From: a virus | DNA: 29,470 bases | Strand: one strand, 5' to 3' | Virus record (IMG/VR): IMGVR_UViG_3300032523_000761 | Location: 1-29,470 of that record | Part shown: positions 14,516 to 24,702 of the stretch, piece after piece | Numbering within the stretch: position 1 is the first letter of the stretch | Layout: every line of letters begins with the position of its first letter | Notes under the pieces: generated by a model | Database searches by the model: none | Told to the model about the DNA's origin: nothing | What the model saw: only the letters and a program-made list of their open reading frames with translations | Position numbers and translations under genes: made by a program

Positions 14516-15748
14516 TCAGGAGGTAGCCTTCGCCAGCCGACCGACGAACTCGGGGCCGTGATTCAGCACGCCGAGGCGGCTGGACCCGACGAAGAGCGTC
14601 TGTCGGCTGCGGACGAGCAGTTCCTTCGCGACCGTGATCTGGAGGCCTTCGGCAGCGAGACCGACCGCGGTCGACTTCGAGAAGTCGCCATAGAGGGCCA
14701 GCGTGGTCGCGGGCATACCCTTGGCGAGGTAGACAGGAGCACCGTACACCGTCGGGACTACTCGACCGCCGCCGACCGTCATGGTCGTCTGTTGAGCAGA
14801 CCAGAGCTTCATCAGGTCGATGTAGCCGGCCTTCGACGCAACCCACGCCCCGGTCCCCATGATCGTCTCGTCCACCTTACCGACCACGTCCGCGAGGTTC
14901 GCGGCGGTCGTCGAGGAGGCGAGAGCCACGGTGACGGTGTTGGGGTTGCTCGCGATCGCGGCGACCGCGGCCGGGAGCCCGACGATCGTCGGGCTCGACG
15001 AGTTGCCGGTGAGCCACTTCTGGTCATACCAGACAGCGAACCCGTAGGACATCCGGTCGACGAGCAGGCCAGCCACGTCGATCGGCGAGTCGGAGAGCAG
15101 CGAGTTTGAGATCGCCACCGAGCCGCCGGCCTCGTAGAGGGTCAGAGCCGGACCGCTGGTCGAGAGGTCCTGGTCGGTGAATGCCGTGTTCTCGGCGGCA
15201 TACGAGACCGTGAACTCGCCAGACTTCGGGAGGTTGATCGTCTGGCCCTTCGGCCGGAAGACGCTCGCGAGCTGGAGGGCCACCGACTGATACTGGAGGC
15301 GATTGATGATCGCATCATAGAGCTCGGTCACGACGTAGGAGTCACCGTAGCCGCTGACCGTTTCGCCCATGGCCCGCTTCTCGCCGGACGCCAGACGGAC
15401 CAGGAAGTCGCCGACATCGCCCGCGACCTTGGCCGAGCGGAACGCCCGGACCCCGGCCCGGATGTCGGAACGACTAAAATCCTCGGGGGCCGCGGGGGCC
15501 TCGACATCACGCCTCGGCTCACTGGCCGAAGTGTGGACGGCCCGCAGGGCTGCAAGCCGAGAATCGAGAGCGGTCTCCGACGCGGCATCCGTGGCGACTT
15601 CGTCGGCCCGCTTCATCGCGGTTGAGAGTCGCTCCTCGATGCTCGCCTTCTCGGTGTCGTCCTTCGGCTCGATGGCCCGGAGGTCCTCGATCTGCTTCGA
15701 CAGCGTGACGGATTCATCCTGAAGGCGGGCGAGCTTGGGCGACGGCAT
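14516..15748 (-). CDS. HK97-fold major capsid protein with N-terminal delta domain
   Basis: 410 aa from ATG 15748, with GAGG seven bases upstream. Residues 1-75 are a charged coiled coil (SVTLSKQIEDLRAIEPKDDT; ASIEERLSTAMKRADEVATD), the delta/scaffold domain normally removed by the prohead protease. The body holds HK97-fold signatures: SGYGDSYVVTELYDAIINRL, SVFRPKGQTINLPKSGEFTV, AFTDQDLSTSGPALTLYEAG, a P-domain helix with DRMSYGFAVWYDQKWLTGN, and PTVYGAPVYLAKGMPATTLA with ALYGDFSK at the C-terminus. It forms the icosahedral shell. Unlike most relatives it is not next to the protease gene; a ten-gene cassette intervenes. Confidence 0.93.
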   Translation of the reverse strand: MPSPKLARLQDESVTLSKQIEDLRAIEPKDDTEKASIEERLSTAMKRADEVATDAASETALDSRLAALRAVHTSASEPRRDVEAPAAPEDFSRSDIRAGVRAFRSAKVAGDVGDFLVRLASGEKRAMGETVSGYGDSYVVTELYDAIINRLQYQSVALQLASVFRPKGQTINLPKSGEFTVSYAAENTAFTDQDLSTSGPALTLYEAGGSVAISNSLLSDSPIDVAGLLVDRMSYGFAVWYDQKWLTGNSSSPTIVGLPAAVAAIASNPNTVTVALASSTTAANLADVVGKVDETIMGTGAWVASKAGYIDLMKLWSAQQTTMTVGGGRVVPTVYGAPVYLAKGMPATTLALYGDFSKSTAVGLAAEGLQITVAKELLVRSRQTLFVGSSRLGVLNHGPEFVGRLAKATS

Positions 15749-15809
15749 GGGAGGTCCTCGTATGTTCGTGTGGTGTCCTTACCGAACGTCACGATATGGC
15801 CGGCAGCCG

Positions 15810-15821
15810 CGGCAGAATCTC
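15810..15821 (-). promoter_or_regulatory. GAGATTCTGCCG motif upstream of the capsid gene
   Basis: This 12-base sequence on the - strand is identical to the one at 22627-22638 in front of portal. In both cases a GCCGG block follows eleven bases after GAGATTC. It lies about 60 bases upstream of the capsid start, after the hairpin at 15827-15843. A shared late-gene control element is possible. Confidence 0.4.
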
Positions 15822-15826
15822 GGGGG

Positions 15827-15843
15827 CGTCCTACCGTAGGACG
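15827..15843. repeat. 17-bp perfect palindrome upstream of capsid gene
   Basis: CGTCCTAC and GTAGGACG flank a single central base, immediately after the stop of the gene at 15845-16153. As RNA it would make a seven-base stem with a three-base loop, without a T-run. It may slow transcription, mark an RNA-processing point or bind a dimeric protein ahead of the capsid gene. Confidence 0.5.
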
Positions 15844-15844
15844 A

Positions 15845-16153
15845 TCAGAGACCCGTCGGCGCCGGGACCATCCGGCCGATCGCCTGCTGGATGTCGCGCT
15901 GTCCGGCCGCGATCTCCTGGAGCGTCTCCGCCTGGCGGCCTTGAATCTCGCCGAGCGACCGCAGGGTCTCCGATGTCTGCTGGAGAAACTGAGTGTGGCT
16001 CTCGACGATAGGGACGACGATCGTCGAATGGATCGCACAGCTCGCCTGCCAGCCCATGAACAGGATGAACGCGAGCATCCCGGCCGGGATGCCGATCATG
16101 TTTAGAAATCCACCCACAGGGCCGAGGGCCTCGACCAGTTCCGATCGCGTCAT
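15845..16153 (-). CDS. Membrane protein with coiled-coil tail (holin-like candidate)
   Basis: 102 aa from ATG 16153 in an ATGA overlap with the upstream gene. Residues about 13-38 are strongly hydrophobic (GGFLNMIGIPAGMLAFILFM), followed by a long amphipathic helix (VESHTQFLQQTSETLRSLGE; QGRQAETLQEIAAGQRDIQQ) likely to form a coiled coil. One membrane span plus a coil resembles some small phage lysis or spanin-like proteins, but no specific family is recognised. It pairs with the membrane protein at 16150-16470. Confidence 0.65.
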   Translation of the reverse strand: MTRSELVEALGPVGGFLNMIGIPAGMLAFILFMGWQASCAIHSTIVVPIVESHTQFLQQTSETLRSLGEIQGRQAETLQEIAAGQRDIQQAIGRMVPAPTGL

Positions 16154-16470
16154 TGATTCGGTTCCTCGTGGTGTTGTGTCCACCATCTCACGACCAGGAT
16201 CTGGACGATCGTCGAGATCGCCCACCACAGGATCAGCGACATGAACGCCATTCCGTTCCGGTCCTGGTAGGCCTGCTCGACGAGCTGACATGTACGGCGG
16301 CGGAGGTCTTCCTGGCCGGCGGCCGAGGCGGCGGCGGCGAACTGCTCCTGGGGCAGGGCCTCCATGGTCGTCCGGACGATCGCGTCGCACCGTTCGCGGC
16401 CGAGGAGCTTTCGCCGCACGGGCGGCAGCCTTGCCCAAACGGCGTCGCGGGCCTGGTCGAGGTCGGTCAC
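16150..16470 (-). CDS. C-terminally anchored membrane protein
   Basis: 106 aa with a GTG start at 16470, which overlaps the protease stop as GTGA. The first 75 residues are helical and charged (DQARDAVWARLPPVRRKLLG; CDAIVRTTMEALPQEQFAAA), and residues about 78-98 (MAFMSLILWWAISTIVQILV) are one membrane helix near the C-terminus. The tail WWTQHHEEPNQ is polar. It is translationally linked to the protease before it and to the next membrane protein, so it probably works with them. Role unknown. Confidence 0.65.
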   Translation of the reverse strand: MTDLDQARDAVWARLPPVRRKLLGRERCDAIVRTTMEALPQEQFAAAASAAGQEDLRRRTCQLVEQAYQDRNGMAFMSLILWWAISTIVQILVVRWWTQHHEEPNQ

Positions 16471-17243
16471 GGCTTGACCTCGCACACCGAGCAGGTGACC
16501 GCGGGGACCTTCCGGTCGGCCTCAGCCAGGAATAGGGCGAGACGCGTCGAGCAGGATCCGATCGTCCGCTTCCTGGCGGTGCCGAACAGCACGCCGGCGA
16601 GCTGGCCGTCGGCAGTGAAGATCGGGCCGCCGGAGTCGCCACTGCGGGCGGTCCCTTCCATCTCGACGAACTGGGCGGCGTGTTTCCTGGTCGGTGAGCC
16701 GTAGTCGGTGACGCGGCCGGTCTGCTCGCGGTACACGCCCGCAGGGCCGTAGCCGGCGATCGTCAGCGGGTCGCCGAGCCGCGGGGCCTGGATCGCGATC
16801 TCGACGGGATCGCCTTCGGGGCGGCCGACGAACAGGGCCGCGAGATCCCAGTCCTGGTCCCACGCGACGACGCGAGCCCGAGTGGTGGTGCCGTCGGGGA
16901 ACGACACGTCGACGGCCTGGAAGTTTCCGCGGACGACGTGCCATGCGGTGAGGACCAGGCCCGTCGTCCCGCTCGCCCGCACGAGGACTCCGGTGCCGAC
17001 CTCGAGCGACTGACCGACCCCGCAGACCACGCGGCAGACCGCCGGCCTGGGCTGGCCCGGGTTTCGCGTCACGGCTGCGGCAGCGGGGGCAGGCGGCGGG
17101 TCGGCCGTCGTCCCCGTGCCCTGGCATTGGGCGCACGGGAAGAAGAGCGGAACCGAGCCGACGAGCCGCGTGCCCTGACAGACACCGCATTCGGCGGCGA
17201 GAGAAGCACTAGCCAGGATCAGCGAGACGATCAGCGATCTCAT
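16467..17243 (-). CDS. Secreted trypsin-like serine protease with N-terminal CxxCxG zinc-ribbon-like segment
   Basis: 258 aa from ATG 17243. Residues 1-17 are a signal peptide (MRSLIVSLILASASLAA). Then C19-x2-C22-x-G and C37-x2-C40-x-G-x-G form half of a DnaJ-type zinc finger. A Pro/Ala linker (48-60) leads into a chymotrypsin-fold domain with catalytic His102 (TAWHVV), Asp133 (DQDWDLAAL) and Ser204 (ARSGDSGGPIF). The C-terminus has another CxxC (251-254). HtrA-like proteases have the same triad, but no PDZ domain is present. In a phage, an exported protease could process virion or envelope proteins, or aid lysis. The triad is certain by motif; the target is unknown. Confidence 0.88.
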   Translation of the reverse strand: MRSLIVSLILASASLAAECGVCQGTRLVGSVPLFFPCAQCQGTGTTADPPPAPAAAAVTRNPGQPRPAVCRVVCGVGQSLEVGTGVLVRASGTTGLVLTAWHVVRGNFQAVDVSFPDGTTTRARVVAWDQDWDLAALFVGRPEGDPVEIAIQAPRLGDPLTIAGYGPAGVYREQTGRVTDYGSPTRKHAAQFVEMEGTARSGDSGGPIFTADGQLAGVLFGTARKRTIGSCSTRLALFLAEADRKVPAVTCSVCEVKP

Positions 17244-17247
17244 GTGG

Positions 17248-18117
17248 TCACCCTGCGGGTTTGTCCCAGAAGTCGGGGATCGTGACGGTGGCGATCGCGA
17301 ACGAGCCTTTCCACGCGGAGCGTGCTGTCTTCTCGGAGTCATACCGGGTCACGTCATAGGAGTCCGGATAGGCCATGAGTCGTTTCTCGTTCATCCACCG
17401 AGCCCACGGCACGGCATGCCCACGGCGGCCCACGCTAACGACGAGCCCGGCCAGGACGCAGCACACGGCCTGCTCGTATGAGTCGGGGAAGATCACTTCC
17501 AGAGGGCGGTAGTGCTTCGCGGTCTCCTTCCAGCCGTCAGGGAAACGACTGACGGGGATCCATTTCCCGCCGCTTTGGTTGGAGTTGCCCTCGCCGCTTG
17601 TGCCCTGGAGCGTGTGCCGGAACCCGTAGTCGTGCGGCTGCATGGTGTCCGGAAGCATGCCGCGGCGGACCGCGATCTCCAGGACCTGGCGGACGTTCGC
17701 CCCGCCCCAGCGGTCGGGGTTCGCTTCACTGTAGACCGACAGCGGAGACATCCAGACAGACCCGTACTTCGCCGACTCAGCGTGCCGGCCTACGATCGGC
17801 CCGGCCGCGTATGTCACGCCTCGGGCCCGGTTGCGGGCGGCCTCGAAGTTTGCCCGAAGGGAGTGGCATGTGCATTCGTGGGTAGGGCTCTGGTTCGTGA
17901 ACCGGTCGATATAGTTCAGGCCCCACGAGTTGGCCGCGTCGTTCGCCTTGGCTCGCTCGACCCACTCGCCAGGCTCGACCCACAGAGACTCTGGGAACTC
18001 ACGGGCCGCGTTGCCGCACGCGTCGCTGAGAGCGTCGGTCGTGTCCTCGGCCGCCAGGTGGTCTGGGTAGCCGTCGTGCTCGTCGGGGAAAAAGTCGATC
18101 AGCTTAGGGTCGATCAT
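17248..18117 (-). CDS. Papain-like (C1-type) cysteine peptidase candidate
   Basis: 289 aa from ATG 18117. The sequence NQSPTHECTCHS places Gln76 six residues before Cys82, the same spacing as the oxyanion Gln and catalytic Cys of papain. MSPLSVYSEANPDRWGGANV followed by RQVLEIAVRRGMLPD is the usual second block, and GHAVPW gives the catalytic His234. The final Asn of the triad is not clear; an Asp in PDSYD may replace it. No signal peptide was found. It lies just upstream of the serine protease gene (stop five bases before its start). A cell-wall or protein hydrolase role is possible; the fold assignment is moderately firm. Confidence 0.65.
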   Translation of the reverse strand: MIDPKLIDFFPDEHDGYPDHLAAEDTTDALSDACGNAAREFPESLWVEPGEWVERAKANDAANSWGLNYIDRFTNQSPTHECTCHSLRANFEAARNRARGVTYAAGPIVGRHAESAKYGSVWMSPLSVYSEANPDRWGGANVRQVLEIAVRRGMLPDTMQPHDYGFRHTLQGTSGEGNSNQSGGKWIPVSRFPDGWKETAKHYRPLEVIFPDSYEQAVCCVLAGLVVSVGRRGHAVPWARWMNEKRLMAYPDSYDVTRYDSEKTARSAWKGSFAIATVTIPDFWDKPAG

Positions 18118-18491
18118 GGCACGGCCCCCGTGACAGCGTCGGAGCTGGCTGGGGCCTTGACGATCGACAGCACGGTCGAGCCCGACAGCACGACCAGAGC
18201 AGGCAGGCCGCGGGCCTTCGCTGCCGCTAGGGCCGGCAGGTACTGGTCCGGGATCTCGCCGTCGCCGTCCGTGGCGTCGGCCTCGAGGAGCGTCGCCACG
18301 ACACCGCGTTCCCGGTTGAGCAGATTAAGGCCGATCACGACGCCCGTCGGTACGGAGCTGGCGTCCTTTTCGTAGACGTAGACCGCGGCCGTCGCGGCCG
18401 GGGCCGTCACGACGGGGACTGTCCACGGGATCACCGGCAGCGGCCCAGACAGGAGCACCAGGCCGGCGGCGAGTAGGAAGAGCGTCCTCAC
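18114..18491 (-). CDS. Exported small protein with signal peptide
   Basis: 125 aa from ATG 18491, overlapping the previous stop. Residues 1-20 (MRTLFLLAAGLVLLSGPLPV) form a signal peptide. The mature part contains VYVYEKDASSVPTGVVIGLN, VVATLLEADATDGDGEIPDQ and AAAKARGLPALVVLSG, an alternation of strands and helices that could be a small alpha/beta (thioredoxin-like) fold without the CxxC pair. It overlaps the papain-like gene start by four bases. No enzymatic motif is seen; role in envelope or lysis functions is inferred from the cassette. Confidence 0.65.
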   Translation of the reverse strand: MRTLFLLAAGLVLLSGPLPVIPWTVPVVTAPAATAAVYVYEKDASSVPTGVVIGLNLLNRERGVVATLLEADATDGDGEIPDQYLPALAAAKARGLPALVVLSGSTVLSIVKAPASSDAVTGAVP

Positions 18492-18727
18492 GTCCGCGGC
18501 TCCTCGGGCTTCAGGAGCTCGGCATGTAGCTGGAGGGCAATAGCGACGGCCGGCGTCTTCCCCTGCCCTCGGAGCCGGGTCGCAAGGTCGCTCACGATCC
18601 GAACGTCGTCGGTCGGGATCGCCGTGCCGGCGGAGAAGACCCGCAGACCGCGAACCTTCTGGATGACGAGGTAGATCGAGTAGAGGACGAGGGCGATTCC
18701 CACGGCGTACTGAGCGTACTGGATCAC
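18488..18727 (-). CDS. Small single-pass membrane protein
   Basis: 79 aa with GTG 18727 as start (GTGA overlap). Residues about 5-22 (AQYAVGIALVLYSIYLVI) form one membrane helix, and the rest is helical and soluble (DDVRIVSDLATRLRGQGKTP; AVAIALQLHAELLKPEE). The longer frame to 18964 is Arg-rich shadow. A phage holin or membrane anchor is possible, but the sequence does not decide it. Confidence 0.6.
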   Translation of the reverse strand: MIQYAQYAVGIALVLYSIYLVIQKVRGLRVFSAGTAIPTDDVRIVSDLATRLRGQGKTPAVAIALQLHAELLKPEEPRT

Positions 18728-18999
18728 GATTCGGTCTCCTGGGCTTTGTCGTTCAGCGTGTCGGCGATCGCGAGCAGCTCGCGAACGAGGTCGGTGCCCT
18801 CGGGTGTCTTCAGGATGGCGGCGACGCGAGTCGCGACTCGGTCGTCGAAGTTGGTTTGCGTCTTCTCCGCGAGCCACTCCAGGAGATCGCCGATGATCAC
18901 GGACCGCTCTCCGGCGTCGAGCGTCGCAGTCATGCGGCGGCCGTACCCGATCAGCGGAGACCACTCATGGAGGAGCCTCACCTGCTCGATGATGTTCAT
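18724..18999 (-). CDS. Unknown 91-aa helical protein
   Basis: Starts at ATG 18999 (ATGA overlap with the previous gene). It reads MNIIEQVRLLHEWSPLIGYG, ERSVIIGDLLEWLAEKTQTN, then DLVRELLAIADTLNDKAQ; all helical, without signal peptide or membrane span. It is likely a cytosolic partner of the membrane proteins encoded on both sides. Family not recognised. Confidence 0.6.
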   Translation of the reverse strand: MNIIEQVRLLHEWSPLIGYGRRMTATLDAGERSVIIGDLLEWLAEKTQTNFDDRVATRVAAILKTPEGTDLVRELLAIADTLNDKAQETES

Positions 19000-19373
19000 T
19001 TCTTCCCTCGGAGAACCGAGAGAAACTGCTCGAGCACGCCGGCGGCGATCGCCAAGACGAGAGCCTTCACGGCAGGCCTGACCAGGATCCACAGCGGATA
19101 CATGGCGGTCGGGATCGCGTAGTCGGCCACAGCGTCGAACAGCCTCTCGACCGCCCCGAGGGCGACCTCTCGTTTCTGCGGTCCGGTGAGGCTCGACACG
19201 CCGTCCAGGATCGGGACGACGAGACGGAGCAGGCCCAGGAGCAGCTCGCCGAACTCGGACCACGTCAGGCCGTCGGCGGCCGCGACCTTCGCTGACGCGA
19301 TGTAGGTCGTGATCTTGTCGAGCAGGCCCGGCCGGTCGACGGCCTCGGTGATCGGTACGGTTGTGATGCTCAT
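18996..19373 (-). CDS. Membrane-associated protein (holin-like candidate)
   Basis: 125 aa from ATG 19373. Two hydrophobic regions are visible: FGELLLGLLRLVVPILDGVS (about 45-64) and a C-terminal one (WILVRPAVKALVLAIAAGVL, about 95-114). It ends with a positively charged tail (RGKK). Two hydrophobic helices and a basic tail are typical of class II holins, which open the membrane for lysis enzymes, but no family match can be shown. It follows the zinc-ribbon gene with a four-base overlap. Confidence 0.6.
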   Translation of the reverse strand: MSITTVPITEAVDRPGLLDKITTYIASAKVAAADGLTWSEFGELLLGLLRLVVPILDGVSSLTGPQKREVALGAVERLFDAVADYAIPTAMYPLWILVRPAVKALVLAIAAGVLEQFLSVLRGKK

Positions 19374-19525
19374 CGTGTTTTCCTTCTCCAGACCTGGGCG
19401 GCGGTGACAACTTGGCGGCGACGTTGACGGCAGTCCTGGCAGGTGACGTATCGAACCTGGCGGTCGCCGGCCCGCTTGCTCGACTCGACACGGCAGCGGC
19501 CGCCGCATGTCGTGCATACGTTCAT
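19370..19525 (-). CDS. Small zinc-ribbon protein (51 aa)
   Basis: 51 codons from ATG 19525 (ATGA overlap) to a TGA inside the next start. It contains MNVCTTCGGRCR and VTCQDCRQRRR, a two-CxxC pair like a zinc ribbon, followed by a basic stretch. The chain of start/stop overlaps on both sides argues that it is a real gene. It may bind nucleic acid or protein; its task in the phage is unknown. Confidence 0.6.
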   Translation of the reverse strand: MNVCTTCGGRCRVESSKRAGDRQVRYVTCQDCRQRRRQVVTAAQVWRRKTR

Positions 19526-20025
19526 GTCTTGGTTCCTACGAGGACCAGCTCATAGGTAGCGGGGGCCGTATTCGACGCCAGGCCGTAGGCGTAGACCTTG
19601 TCGACGACTGCTCCGACCCCGGACTCCACCGTCGAAACGCCGACACTCCACAGCAACACGCCGCCAGGATGAACCTCGGCCTCCCAGTAGGTGTCGCCGG
19701 CAGTGTTCGTAAGGCGGAAGTCGATGAACTGCGCCGTGCTTGTGTTTTTGAAATAGACCATCCGGACCTTGTCGATCGACGCGGTGTAGGTCGTGCCCGA
19801 CTGGGTCGGCACGGCCACGGACGTAAGAGTCGTGATGTCGCTTACGTTCGCCGCGACGCTGCCCGACTTGCGGAAATAGATGTTTGCCTGGCTCGCTCCG
19901 GTGCCGTCCGCGAAGGCTAAGTTTTCGAGCACGACAGACGCATCCGCGACAGCCCCGACGGTCTGGGTGTTTGTCAGGGCGAAGTCGATCCGGAGGAGCC
20001 CGGAAACTGTCAGCGATGAAGCCAT
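19522..20025 (-). CDS. Structural-type protein, possible decoration or capsid-associated protein
   Basis: 167 aa from ATG 20025. It is all beta (LRIDFALTNTQTVGAVADAS, SQANIYFRKSGSVAANVSDI, VRMVYFKNTSTAQFIDFRL, VHPGGVLLWSVGVSTVESGV), rich in Thr, Val and Ala, with no enzyme motif. It sits directly after the prohead protease in transcription, where HK97-like phages often encode a decoration or head-fibre protein. That role is inferred from place and composition. Confidence 0.6.
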   Translation of the reverse strand: MASSLTVSGLLRIDFALTNTQTVGAVADASVVLENLAFADGTGASQANIYFRKSGSVAANVSDITTLTSVAVPTQSGTTYTASIDKVRMVYFKNTSTAQFIDFRLTNTAGDTYWEAEVHPGGVLLWSVGVSTVESGVGAVVDKVYAYGLASNTAPATYELVLVGTKT

Positions 20026-20037
20026 AGCGCCCCCTGG

Positions 20038-21027
20038 TTATCCTGCGTGAATCCGCATCCTTGCGACGGCTGCGGCCGCCGCGGCCCGAGCCCCGAGGAG
20101 CGTCGAGACCTTGAACGATCGAGCGACATCGGCAGGCGACGGAGCCGCGACGATCCCCTCGGGGTAGTCGTCGACCCACACGTCGACCGTCAGGCCTGCA
20201 CGGGCGGCCGCGTCGCGCTTCTGGGTGTCGGCACCACAGAGGATCAGGTCGCCGACCTCGAGGTCCGCGAACGCCAGCCGCAGCTCCTGGCGGTTGGCGT
20301 CGTCGTCCTTGCGTCGCGAGATGCAGACGACTTGATGGCCGGCGGCCGTTGCCATGCCGACGAACGACCGCCATAGGCCTGGGGCCGCAGTGAACGTCCG
20401 GTCGTAGTCCAGCGAGATCAGCAGCCCGCGGCCCTCGGCCCTGTTCTGGAGTAGCCCTCGGGCTGCCTTCCAGGCCGACAGGGATCGGAGGCCGACGGAG
20501 CTGTTCGGGTAGGCCGCGTGCGTCACCGGCGACACGTCGAAGATCGCGGCCTCGGTGATCGTCCGCGTGACGTTGCCGGTCGGATCCTCGTCCCACTGCT
20601 CGCCGCGTGCATCCATGAGCGAAAACGCGAACGACGAGCCGAAGATGTACTTTTGCGAGATCAGGGGCACGACCTCGGCCGTCGTCGGCGTGCCGACCGG
20701 AGGCGTGGCCCGGAAGACGAGCCCCTTGTCGGTCTCCTGGATCTCTAGCGTTCCGTTGGTCGTCCGGCCGAGGACCTTTGAGTCGTCGTGGTTGTATTTG
20801 GCGACCACGTCGGCCAGGCCTCGCGGGTCGTTCGGCGAGCGGTCCAGGTACTTCCGGAACGCGCCCGGCATAAACCGCTCTTTGAACCCGCCCAGGTCGA
20901 CCGACCACTTATTCCATGGAGGGGCCATTCCGACGATCATGGGACGACCGTCGTCGCGGGTCTCGACGCGGAGCTCGATGTCGGGGTCGCCAGCCTGGGC
21001 GAGGTAACGGACTTCACGCTGGGCCAT
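20038..21027 (-). CDS. HK97-type prohead protease fused to a C-terminal HAD-like domain
   Basis: 329 aa from ATG 21027 (AGGAG upstream; longer frame to 21045 rejected). Residues about 20-185 match prohead protease: PMIVGMAPPWNKWS, His80 in KYNHDDSKVLGR, GTLEI, Ser131/132 in FGSSFAFSL, and FDVSPVTHAAYP with Asp164. The protease matures the capsid by removing the delta domain. Residues about 203-295 show HAD motifs in order: LDYDRTFT (Asp207, Asp209), CISRR (Ser237), QKRDAA (Lys270) and WVDDYPEGI (Asp286/287). A phosphohydrolase domain fused to a prohead protease is unusual. The frame is continuous, so no frameshift is needed. Overlaps the portal gene by 14 bases. Confidence 0.88.
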   Translation of the reverse strand: MAQREVRYLAQAGDPDIELRVETRDDGRPMIVGMAPPWNKWSVDLGGFKERFMPGAFRKYLDRSPNDPRGLADVVAKYNHDDSKVLGRTTNGTLEIQETDKGLVFRATPPVGTPTTAEVVPLISQKYIFGSSFAFSLMDARGEQWDEDPTGNVTRTITEAAIFDVSPVTHAAYPNSSVGLRSLSAWKAARGLLQNRAEGRGLLISLDYDRTFTAAPGLWRSFVGMATAAGHQVVCISRRKDDDANRQELRLAFADLEVGDLILCGADTQKRDAAARAGLTVDVWVDDYPEGIVAAPSPADVARSFKVSTLLGARAAAAAAVARMRIHAG

Positions 21028-22600
21028 CGTTTGACTCCTGGACAATCGGAGATTCCGACAGATCCGACACGAGCTTTCCGACGGTGAACTCCGTCGCCTC
21101 GCCGTTGATATGGACGCGGACGCTGGCGGCCGGCTGGTCTGCGGTTGCGGCGATCGCGAAGGGGGATCCCTCGACCCCGAGAGTCCCGGCCGTCATCAGG
21201 TGCTCGATCGTTCCCTCGCCGCCGTCGAAGTAGACGTACTGGCCGACGGTGAAGCCGCCGGCCTGGTCGACGCTCTCGCCGCCGCCCTCGTCGGGGACGG
21301 GATCCGCCGGCGCTTCCGTGCTGTCGGCGGCGGCAGCCGGCGCGACACTTGCCTGGGCGGCCGCAGCGTCGAGCGTCGAGAAACCAAGCTGGACGAACGT
21401 CTCGTTCGCCGCTGGCGTGTCGAGTAGGGGGAAATCCTCGCGGTCGCGGATCTCGTTCGGTGTGATCGCGCCCATGTTCCACAGGGACTGATACAGGGCA
21501 GCCCGGCCGGCGGTGTCGGCCCGCAGGACTCCGCGGGTGTCGAGCTTGCAGTACACGTCCTCGCCGTAGACCGGCTGGAGTGCCATGTCGATCGGCGACT
21601 CGATTCGCTTCGCCCACGGGAGCAGGCACCAAACTTGAGCGCTCAGGTGTTCCTGCTCGACGTTCGAGTATCGCGCCATCTTCGCGTCGCCAAGCAGCGT
21701 CGAGGGGACGCCCCAGTGTCGGCACACGTCGGGGAGGATCGCGTCCCGCAGCTCCTGGAACTGCGACGCCTCCATCGAGTTGGACTCGATCGGCTTCAGT
21801 CGCGTTTTCTTTGGCAGGACGGCGGCCTTACCGCGGTTGCTCGCGCCGCCGTAGACCTCCGCGAGCATGTTCCGCAGGGCGTCGACCGCCTCGTCGGGGA
21901 CCTTCTCGTCCGTCTCGAGGACCATGTCCGGTCGCGCGGAGTTGTCCCAGAACGCGGTCGCCGCGGTGTCGAGCCGTTGGGCCAGCCGGATGGAGGTCGC
22001 GCACATTTCCGAGGGCGCGTGCCCGACGATTCCGTTGTCTGAGATCCAGCGCCAGTGGAGCATCTGTTGTTGCGGGATCGGCTCCCAGACACCGCGATCG
22101 TTCCAGAACTGGTACGTCAGCGAGTAGTCGGAGTTTTGCTCCACCTTCACGCGGCTCGGGTGTAGCGGGATCAGACTCGACATCCAGCCGCGATCGCCGG
22201 ACAGGATCCTCGCGTAGCCGTTTCCATGGAGCGCGGTCCAGTAGGCCTGCAAGACGTAGAAGTCGAACGCGCTCTGCCAGCGATTCGGTCGCTTCCGGAG
22301 CGTGTAGGCGGCCGGGAGGTCGGCCTTCACTCGCCGCCCAGCTCCGTCCTCTCGCATGACCTGGAGAGGACATATCGCGACAGCCTGGGCGATCCATCGG
22401 CAGACGCCAAAGATCGAGGAAATGCGGGCGGCCGTCTCGGGCCCGACGTAGCTGGTCGAGATCGACCCGAGCGTGTTGGTCGTGCTCAGGCTCTCGGCCC
22501 GGAACGAGACGACGCGTGGGGCCGCGGCGGCCTTGGCCGGAGTCCGGCGACGGCTGCCGCGGCCTCCGGAGGCCGTCGGCTTTTTGGGCTGCTTGCGCAT
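21014..22600 (-). CDS. HK97-type portal protein with C-terminal extension
   Basis: 528 aa from ATG 22600, clearly longer than usual portals (about 400). The phage portal family signature is present: ARISSIFGVCRWIAQAVAIC, GNGYARILSGDRGWMSSLIP, LHWRWISDNGIVGHAP, SMEASQFQELRDAILPDVCR, HWGVPSTLLGD, YSNVEQEHLS and an end ITPNEIRDREDFPLL. Residues about 430-528 add a Pro/Ala linker and a beta-rich domain (FTVGQYVYFDGGEGTIEHLM, then TEFTVGKLVSDLSES) that resembles SH3/DUF2945-like modules. The portal ring is the DNA entry gate of the head. Upstream is the large terminase, downstream the protease. Confidence 0.92.
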   Translation of the reverse strand: MRKQPKKPTASGGRGSRRRTPAKAAAAPRVVSFRAESLSTTNTLGSISTSYVGPETAARISSIFGVCRWIAQAVAICPLQVMREDGAGRRVKADLPAAYTLRKRPNRWQSAFDFYVLQAYWTALHGNGYARILSGDRGWMSSLIPLHPSRVKVEQNSDYSLTYQFWNDRGVWEPIPQQQMLHWRWISDNGIVGHAPSEMCATSIRLAQRLDTAATAFWDNSARPDMVLETDEKVPDEAVDALRNMLAEVYGGASNRGKAAVLPKKTRLKPIESNSMEASQFQELRDAILPDVCRHWGVPSTLLGDAKMARYSNVEQEHLSAQVWCLLPWAKRIESPIDMALQPVYGEDVYCKLDTRGVLRADTAGRAALYQSLWNMGAITPNEIRDREDFPLLDTPAANETFVQLGFSTLDAAAAQASVAPAAAADSTEAPADPVPDEGGGESVDQAGGFTVGQYVYFDGGEGTIEHLMTAGTLGVEGSPFAIAATADQPAASVRVHINGEATEFTVGKLVSDLSESPIVQESNDGPA

Positions 22601-22640: not shown

Positions 22641-24284
22641 CTAGATCATCCGGATCTTCCAGTCGTCGAGGCTCGACGTACCACCAGAGTCCTCGTCCGT
22701 CGAGGCCAGGGCCAGGGCGTTGACGAGCGCCGCGACCCCGTCGATCTTCTCCGTCGACTTCGCCTTGTCGGGCTTGATCGCCCCGGTCGGGTCCGTGTAG
22801 ACGCACACGTTGTTGGCGTTCCACTGGGCCACGGGGTTCGCGCCATGCCTGAGCCGCTTCTCGACGACCAGGGCCTCGAGGAGTTTACAGGGCGCGTTGA
22901 GGTACGAGGTCCGCTGCGGGATGTCTTTGGTCGTGATCCCCTCGCGCTGGAGCAGTGTCTCCAGCGCCCCTGCCTGCCACGGGTCGCAGCCGGCGGCCTT
23001 GATCTCGTGGGTCTGCCCGAATGCGATGATGTCGCGAGCGACGCACTCGTGATCCAGCCGGTGCCCGTCGGTCACGATCACCCAGCCGTCGCGGATCCAT
23101 GAATCATAAGGAATACCCTCGCGGACTCGGTCGGCCACGGTCTCGCGTGGGACCCAGTATCGCCACTCGACGGAATAGGACCCGTCGGATTCTTTGAACA
23201 CGAAGGCGGCCGCGGTCATGTCGAGGTTCGACGCCAGGTCGACGCCGACCCAGCAGGGCCGGCCCTCGGTCGGGTCGAGCGGCCCGGCGGAACACTTCGA
23301 CCAGTCGTCGCCGTGGAACCAGCGGGCGTCGGCAGCCTGCCAAACATTCAGGGAGTAGCGGAGAAACTTCGACATCTTCCGCGGGTCGGTCGTCGCGTCC
23401 TGGTAGTCGGCCGCGAACTCGTCTTCGGGGAACGCGACACCCATCGAAGGATTCGCTTTCCGCCAGACCTTCGGCGACGAGTAGTCGTCCTCGTCCTTCG
23501 CCGCGTAGATCAGGCCGTAGAACGTGGGGTTGGCCTTTGGATCGGCGAGAACGAGCTCGCAGTCCTGCCACCAGCGCCAGCCGATTCCGTTTCGATCCGA
23601 GCCTGCCGTCGAGATCGAGATCACCAGGCCGTTGGCCGTGCCGCGGGTCGCGTAGATCAACGCGTCGACCAGGTCCGGGGAGCGGAAACTATGGATCTCG
23701 TCGAGGATCACCGATCCATTCAATCCCTCGTTCCGCCACGAGTCGGAGGATAGGCAGCGGATCTCTTTCCCGGTCTCTCGGTTCCGGATGATGCTCCGCG
23801 AGTCGACGACCTCGAGGAGCTTCGAGAGCGTGGGCGAGGCGTCGACCGACTGCCGTACCATCCGGTACATGGTCCGGGCCTGGAGCCGGTCGTTCGCCGC
23901 GAGGAACACGTCCTGGGCCGGGGCGTGGCAGGTCGCCATGTACTGGGCGAGCTGCGACATCAGGCTCGACTTTCGATTCTTCTTCGGGACGAAGATCCCG
24001 GCCCGCCGGAATCGAAGGCGGCCGTCCGGTCGACGCCAGCCGAACAGCGGGCGGAGGACTCGCTCCTTCTGCCACTCGATCAACTCGACGTGCTTCGGAT
24101 CGCCGCCGCGCTCGTCGGGGTGGCGGCAGAGCTGCTCGATGAACTCGACCGGAGCCTGGGCCGCCTCCTCGTCCCACTTGTAGCCAGCGAGGTACTCGGG
24201 CCGCTTCCTCGGGTCGCGCTTCTCAGCCGCGGACCGAGAGCCGGGCGAGGATCGCGGTCTCCGGGTCGGAGTCTTCTTTGCCAT
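22641..24284 (-). CDS. terL: Terminase large subunit (HK97-type)
   Basis: 547 aa from ATG 24284. It has the ATPase motifs of Terminase_1: Walker A-like VPKKNRKSS (about 99-107), Walker B VILDE (192-196) and ISISTAGSDRNGIG as the coupling motif. The nuclease domain shows WVGVDLASNLDMTA (Asp349), CDPWQAGALE (Asp near 440) and EKIDGVAALVNALA near the end, the three acid positions expected. This is the motor that pumps DNA into the head and cuts it. It overlaps the small subunit gene by 62 bases. With an HNH gene nearby, cos-type packaging is likely. Confidence 0.95.
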   Translation of the reverse strand: MAKKTPTRRPRSSPGSRSAAEKRDPRKRPEYLAGYKWDEEAAQAPVEFIEQLCRHPDERGGDPKHVELIEWQKERVLRPLFGWRRPDGRLRFRRAGIFVPKKNRKSSLMSQLAQYMATCHAPAQDVFLAANDRLQARTMYRMVRQSVDASPTLSKLLEVVDSRSIIRNRETGKEIRCLSSDSWRNEGLNGSVILDEIHSFRSPDLVDALIYATRGTANGLVISISTAGSDRNGIGWRWWQDCELVLADPKANPTFYGLIYAAKDEDDYSSPKVWRKANPSMGVAFPEDEFAADYQDATTDPRKMSKFLRYSLNVWQAADARWFHGDDWSKCSAGPLDPTEGRPCWVGVDLASNLDMTAAAFVFKESDGSYSVEWRYWVPRETVADRVREGIPYDSWIRDGWVIVTDGHRLDHECVARDIIAFGQTHEIKAAGCDPWQAGALETLLQREGITTKDIPQRTSYLNAPCKLLEALVVEKRLRHGANPVAQWNANNVCVYTDPTGAIKPDKAKSTEKIDGVAALVNALALASTDEDSGGTSSLDDWKIRMI

Positions 24285-24702
24285 TCGTTGGGTCCTGCGG
24301 GATTCGGGCCGCGGAGGCTGCCGTCAGTCCGAAGTCGCGACACAGTGTGACGAAGTCCCTACGCGAGTCACGGAGCAGCTTCGCGACCGGGCTTGCGGCC
24401 TGGCCCTTCTCGGTCGCGGTGACGAAGCCCTCCGCGAGGACCAGGTCCTCGAGGTGCCGGATGTCGGCATGAAGCCGGCAGAGGATCGCGAACGAGTCGG
24501 CCTGCTCGGGGAGGAGCCGGCCGTCGGCGATCAGGATCGGCGCGACGCGGGCCCAGTAGGCGGCGGCCGCCGGGACGGCCGACACGCTGGCCGGGATGTC
24601 GACCTGGCCGGCAGGCGCGGACGGTTCTAGTCGGGCCCGCGTGTTGCGTCCCGCCTTCGATCGCCCGCTTTTCGGGTCAGGAACGGGGCCTCGACTGCCC
24701 AT
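24223..24702 (-). CDS. terS: Terminase small subunit, P27 family
   Basis: 159 aa from ATG 24702 behind a strong AAGGAGG. MGSRGPVPDPKSGRSKAGRN is the typical basic opening of phage P27-type small terminases (G-RG..P-P...). Next come AYWARVAPILIADGRLLPEQ, SFAILCRLHADIRHLEDLVL and KLLRDSRRDFVTLCRDFGLT, the conserved helices of TIGR01558, ending in a disordered tail. It recognises the packaging site and recruits the large subunit. Confidence 0.92.
   Translation of the reverse strand: MGSRGPVPDPKSGRSKAGRNTRARLEPSAPAGQVDIPASVSAVPAAAAYWARVAPILIADGRLLPEQADSFAILCRLHADIRHLEDLVLAEGFVTATEKGQAASPVAKLLRDSRRDFVTLCRDFGLTAASAARIPQDPTNGKEDSDPETAILARLSVRG

Follow-up and report, generated by a model that had tools for sequence, protein, structure and literature searches.

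A single open reading frame in an uncultivated virus of bacteria joins an HK97-type (S78) prohead protease to a HAD-like phosphatase domain and a conserved helical tail, and the same in-frame arrangement is found in many related viral sequences. Each half of this fusion is already known; what is new is their pairing in one chain. Phage head maturation is described in terms of assembly, proteolysis, packaging and expansion, a scheme from which phosphatase chemistry is absent. We favor, with moderate confidence, the interpretation that the fusion is a two-enzyme head-maturation protein, whose HAD phosphatase was acquired once, is maintained by purifying selection and acts inside the prohead.

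Domain organization of the protease-HAD protein

The window, by which we mean the whole stretch of DNA analyzed, comprises the 29,470 bases of IMG/VR virus record IMGVR_UViG_3300032523_000761. Positions 20038-21027 of its minus strand form one unbroken coding sequence of 329 amino acids, in which the initial annotation had recognized both protease and HAD motifs; the translation agrees, with the protease residues H80, S131/S132 and DVSPVT (164-169) in the expected places and the HAD motifs LDYDRTFT (206-213), CISRR (235-239), QKRDAA (269-274) and WVDDYPEGI (284-292) in the expected order. The protein consists of a protease domain (residues 20-182; 20482-20970, all coordinates here on the minus strand), a linker that is mostly helical in the predicted model (residues 183-200; 20428-20481), a HAD-like capless phosphatase domain (residues 201-292; 20152-20427), a variable spacer (residues 293-303), and a conserved Ala/Arg-rich helical tail (residues 304-329, VSTLLGARAAAAAAVARMRIHAG; 20041-20118). 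The HAD domain does lie behind a short linker, as had been proposed, but the picture of a simple C-terminal addition does not hold, the domain being inserted ahead of the spacer and tail. Pfam and PHROG profile searches of the protein recovered S78, HAD and tail only, with no P-loop kinase domain.

Across the fusion family as a whole, separate translation of the HAD domain from an internal start is conceivable: codons 170-207 contain a start codon and SD-like stretch in 42 of 115 distinct relatives, a count to which chance matches are likely to contribute in such GC-rich sequence. A codon check of the same interval in the window's own gene found no in-frame ATG, GTG or TTG.

Profile matches, conserved residues and gene context identify the N-terminal half as an HK97-type (S78) prohead protease. 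Two curated profiles match residues 20-182: Pfam Peptidase_S78 (PF04586; 1.6e-30, 106.9 bits, cut-off 21) and the NCBIfam equivalog model for the HK97 prohead protease (TIGR01543; 3.7e-19, score 69.3, cut-off 59), the latter being matched by all 23 scanned members of the fusion family. The catalytic residues H80 and S132 are each present in 89 of 89 distinct complete fusions. The gene setting is also of HK97 type, with small and large terminase subunits, portal and major capsid protein (MCP) co-directional, and the MCP gene not adjacent to the protease.

The head-gene cluster

The co-directional cluster, also on the minus strand, runs from the terminase small subunit (24223-24702; phrog_83, 1.9e-16) through the terminase large subunit (22641-24284; PF20441/PF03354), the portal (21014-22600; PF04860, 6.9e-76), whose 3' end overlaps the start of the protease-HAD gene by 14 nt, the protease-HAD gene itself, a set of small or uncharacterized genes, and a trypsin-like protease to the MCP (14516-15748; PF05065, 1.7e-23 over residues 139-393; phrog_10) and a head-tail adaptor. 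About 110 extra N-terminal residues precede the Phage_capsid match of the MCP, and are possibly an HK97-like scaffold (delta) domain. The region 14516-21027 departs from a portal-protease-MCP order, about 4.3 kb and several genes separating protease and MCP. The trypsin-like serine protease encoded within the cluster (16470-17342, minus strand; Trypsin_2, 9e-20) features paired CxxC motifs and a signal-like hydrophobic segment, and locus L082 has a similar gene downstream of its own fusion.

Sequence and predicted structure of the HAD domain

Residues 199-300 match, over the whole domain, the phage families PHROG 4256 (about 3e-17) and PHROG 4919 (about 2e-16), whose function is unnamed in PHROGs; neither Pfam nor NCBIfam offers a model that names the HAD part, weak and scattered HAD matches appearing in single relatives only. 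Motif I is D207-Y-D209-R-T211 (20395-20409), motif II is S237-R-R239 (20311-20319), motif III is K270 (20218-20220), and motif IV is D286-D287 (20167-20172), all on the minus strand. D207, D209, T211, R239, K270, W284, D286 and D287 are identical in all 89 distinct complete fusions, and position 237 is serine or threonine in every one. Among 46 divergent homologous domains, most of them standalone, only nine columns never vary, namely the aspartate pair and threonine of motif I, the arginine two residues after motif II, the motif III lysine, and the W, D, D and P of the motif IV stretch W-x-D-D-x-P. A chance motif match is ruled out, as precisely the catalytic columns are invariant. With this active-site signature intact, we infer that the domain is catalytically active.

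Median dN/dS over close pairs was lowest in the tail (0.24), followed by the HAD domain (0.32), the protease (0.45), the linker (0.57) and the spacer (0.65). Of these values only the order should be read, as the pairs are non-independent, recombination is present and dS is partly saturated. By this ordering the HAD domain is more conserved than the protease and is under purifying selection.

PDB sequence searches with the single HAD domain returned noise, and with a HAD profile gave no clear match, AphA appearing at 0.015 below a designed protein. The motifs FDVDGT, VSGR and AIDDR of T4 PseT (taken from the T4 genome) correspond to LDYDRT, ISRR and WVDDY of the fused domain. Alignment by hhalign to nine phage Pnkp phosphatases gave a local P of 8e-5 and a probability of 60, with motifs II-IV aligned; global alignment also placed motif I, at a probability of 26, and two unrelated profiles used as controls scored 0.2-0.3.

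The initial annotation had named structure prediction as the point on which the HAD assignment could fail. Folded alone (AlphaFold/AF2), the domain is predicted to form a capless, Rossmann-type HAD core with a pLDDT of about 97, and its best solved match is the 3'-phosphatase domain of T4 Pnkp (Z 10.6, 95 residues, rmsd 2.5), followed by bacterial Pnkp1 (Z 9.3), a small uncharacterized Corynebacterium glutamicum protein (9.0) and AphA (8.4). Many further HAD phosphatases match with Z in the range 7-10.6, including chain J of 8i8b from AcMNPV (Z 7.3), which we take to be the 38K protein of that virus. Foldseek searches of the PDB gave no match with E < 0.001 for either the full-length or the HAD-alone model, and with the full-length model were uninformative, the top ranks mixing folds. 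Because these E-values are not significant, the HAD assignment relies on Z-scores, fold and motifs together. Motif I, motifs II-IV in order and the predicted Rossmann core place the domain in the HAD superfamily; the evidence is enough for that assignment and insufficient for naming the domain Pnkp.

Distribution and origin of the fusion

A whole-protein scan of viral contigs yielded 80 loci, 56-100% identical, and a scan with the HAD domain found 238 relatives; the analysis retained the 80 best. The same C-terminal domain, for which the initial annotation had suggested searching protease homologs, is widely present. IMG/VR relatives yielded 244 ORFs with the protease domain, from overlapping loci and hence from fewer than 244 viruses; in 231 of them the HAD domain follows in frame, 12 break off where the contig stops, and L291 is the one genuine case of absence. 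Distinct complete fused proteins number 89 and come from many metagenomes. In a tblastn search of phage records no place covered 80% of the fusion, so that no cultured phage in the searched collection carries it, and a literature search for a protease-HAD fusion found none. One planctomycete MAG contig encodes the fusion (1 of 392 sampled Planctomycetota; S78 proteases occur in 44 of 384), making a planctomycete host a lead only, as this contig may be binned free phage.

A maximum-likelihood tree of the protease domain requires two label changes: two viral contigs without the HAD domain, L387 and L393, branch as sisters of the fused clade, and L291, which lacks it too, is nested within that clade at modest support. 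The simplest reading of this tree is one gain of the HAD domain in the protease clade and one loss in L291. At the C-termini of all three HAD-less proteins are Ala/Arg-rich helical tails similar to the one that follows the HAD domain, which makes it look as if the domain had been inserted between the protease and a tail of a pre-existing type, although the tails concerned are short, low-complexity sequences. We propose that the domain was acquired from the widespread phage HAD family described below.

The fusion has also been reshuffled. In four pairs of loci (L127/L078, L306/L275, L310/L274 and L064/L044) the HAD domain, and mostly also the portal core, is 93-100% identical, and most of the portal C-terminus and the protease are only about 45-65% identical, the breakpoint being the protease-HAD junction. 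L049 and L010 illustrate the reverse exchange, with protease sequences mostly 90-97% identical at the DNA level and HAD sequences 56-64% identical. In these comparisons breakpoints fall at domain junctions, and the protease-HAD junction appears to tolerate recombination. Between phages that are otherwise near-identical, the C-terminal 100-odd codons of the portal (21014-21370 in the window) have been swapped as a unit with the adjoining protease domain, hinting that portal tail and protease are co-adapted.

Standalone relatives of the HAD domain

The HAD family represented by PHROG 4256/4919 is widespread in phages, where it is usually encoded by a standalone gene, and the fusion gives this family its first setting. 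Most standalone relatives sit among replication, nucleotide, repair or small uncharacterized genes of other phages, and their loci showed no match to the window's head proteins. One phage contig carries two ORFs of the family side by side in tandem (L241:5899-6594).

The closest standalone relatives share 51-54% identity with the fused domains and belong to a separate lineage (L211, L229, L335-L342) in which the HAD gene lies directly behind a phrog_21 portal. Downstream of it follow a small ORF, a protein that combines an H...S pattern with a C-terminal half resembling a scaffold, and a major head protein (phrog_1005). From its position and its H...S...VDLVDEPAANP pattern, the H...S protein is a probable protease-scaffold. 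It gave no PHROG, Pfam or phage-record match, and hhalign returned a probability of 5, though the His and Ser columns align; the genes concerned (L211:3841-4755 and L229:5464-6363) may represent a divergent protease family.

A Foldseek search of predicted viral proteins (BFVD) with the HAD model matched entries annotated as XkdF or prohead protease (A0A6J7WLI9, A0A6J5N6Z6, A0A6J5NSI2, A0A6J7WEB6, A0A6J7WUA4, A0A6J5R419, A0A6J5NAI8 and A0A6J5S5M9); by these model matches, other protease families, including the XkdF type, may carry HAD-like domains. A PF14550 search in Planctomycetota found one XkdF protein, without a HAD domain.

Proposed role and alternative explanations

Prohead proteases act inside the prohead (PMC10052503), and HK97 proheads assemble from portal, protease and a capsid protein that bears a scaffold domain at its N-terminus (PMC10275583). 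We propose that the protease-HAD protein follows other prohead proteases into the prohead, perhaps by way of its Ala/Arg-rich tail, which would place the HAD domain inside the assembling head, where it would dephosphorylate a phosphorylated DNA end, a nucleotide or a phosphorylated head protein; it might also be released by self-cleavage. The nearest structures, like the neighbors of standalone relatives, suggest a DNA end or nucleotide; analogy with baculovirus 38K suggests a phosphorylated head protein.

Two observations count against a role in the head. The ancestral job of the HAD family need not concern capsids, because most standalone relatives lie among replication and nucleotide genes, in loci that gave no match to the window's head proteins, and the relative L291 manages without the domain. 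The HAD domain might then be an ordinary intracellular phosphatase of nucleotides or nucleic-acid ends, active in the cytoplasm and fused for co-expression only. The standalone homologs in kuraviruses, seunaviruses and pakpunaviruses, located near DNA polymerase, MazG-like pyrophosphatase and RNA ligase genes, fit such an enzyme, as do the closest structures, which are polynucleotide and nucleotide phosphatases. We nevertheless consider this rather unlikely, as a single ancestral fusion has survived in divergent proteases, one clean loss apart, and a close standalone relative has been placed independently in the head operon of another lineage.

The compact HAD domain is flanked by the two segments with the highest dN/dS of the protein (linker, 0.57; spacer, 0.65), and C-terminal propeptides of prohead proteases can self-cleave, as in SPN3US gp245 (PMC10052503), features that would suit a cargo enzyme that is freed in the head, stays in the virion and is delivered with the DNA to act, for example, on DNA ends, nucleotides or defence signals in the next host. 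Released propeptides are, however, generally expected to exit the head (PMC10052503), and no cleavage motif was identified in the fusion protein, so that we hold this to be improbable.

The position of the domain between protease and conserved tail, together with recombination breakpoints at domain junctions, would fit a catalytically dead spacer or a binding module for scaffold or portal; this we regard as very unlikely, since all catalytic HAD positions are invariant in the 89 fusions and 46 divergent homologs whereas most others vary. Finally, an assembly or sequencing artefact joining two genes through a lost stop or frameshift, which the initial annotation had raised against its own proposal, is ruled out for practical purposes because the in-frame fusion is seen again and again, in 89 distinct proteins encoded on independent contigs of many metagenomes and also on the planctomycete MAG contig.

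The interpretation of the fusion as a two-enzyme head-maturation protein can be extended. HAD phosphatases could be a working part of head assembly in tailed phages, comparable to baculovirus 38K and arisen at least twice, once as the S78 fusion and once as a separate gene in the L211/L229 lineage, with perhaps the XkdF type in addition; we put this broader idea forward only tentatively.

Comparison with known systems

The HAD-less relatives of the fusion are ordinary HK97-family prohead proteases (PF04586/TIGR01543), and the fusion shares with that family the protease domain, the conserved His and Ser, a position directly behind the portal and a C-terminal tail; it differs in its in-frame HAD domain and in an MCP gene that lies about 4.3 kb downstream, beyond several other genes. 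A C-terminal extension is also found in the prohead protease gp245 of SPN3US, whose propeptide of 64 residues is removed by self-cleavage (PMC10052503), but as far as we could find, no enzymatic domain has been reported for that propeptide.

On the phosphatase side, the PHROG 4256/4919 proteins of kuraviruses, vequintaviruses and pakpunaviruses, some of them annotated as HAD-like, class B acid phosphatase or 5'-nucleotidase, share the DxDxT, S/T-x-R, K and WxDDxP motifs at about 30-37% identity, but are standalone and mostly encoded outside head operons. The 3'-phosphatase of T4 Pnkp (PseT) is the best fold match and has the same order of DxDxT, S-x-R, K and DD; the fusion, however, lacks the P-loop kinase half and the longer stretch that follows motif I in T4, and the sequence similarity is weak.

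A functional parallel that we propose is 38K (Ac98/BCP) of baculoviruses, which forms part of the nucleocapsid; genome encapsidation depends on its HAD motifs (PMC5899202, PMC11654684). It too is a HAD-type viral phosphatase with DxD, S, K and DD, although only motif order and fold are shared with the fused domain; 38K is not fused to a protease, belongs to HAD subfamily IIIC and comes from an unrelated virus group. According to a 2024 baculovirus study, HAD phosphatases had not been implicated in virion formation elsewhere. The conserved pairing of protease and HAD domain suggests that phage particle assembly, too, uses a phosphatase, earlier reports having concerned insect viruses only, and, taken together with the close relative that a second lineage encodes among its head genes, raises a direct question: does head assembly or genome packaging depend on dephosphorylation in some phages?
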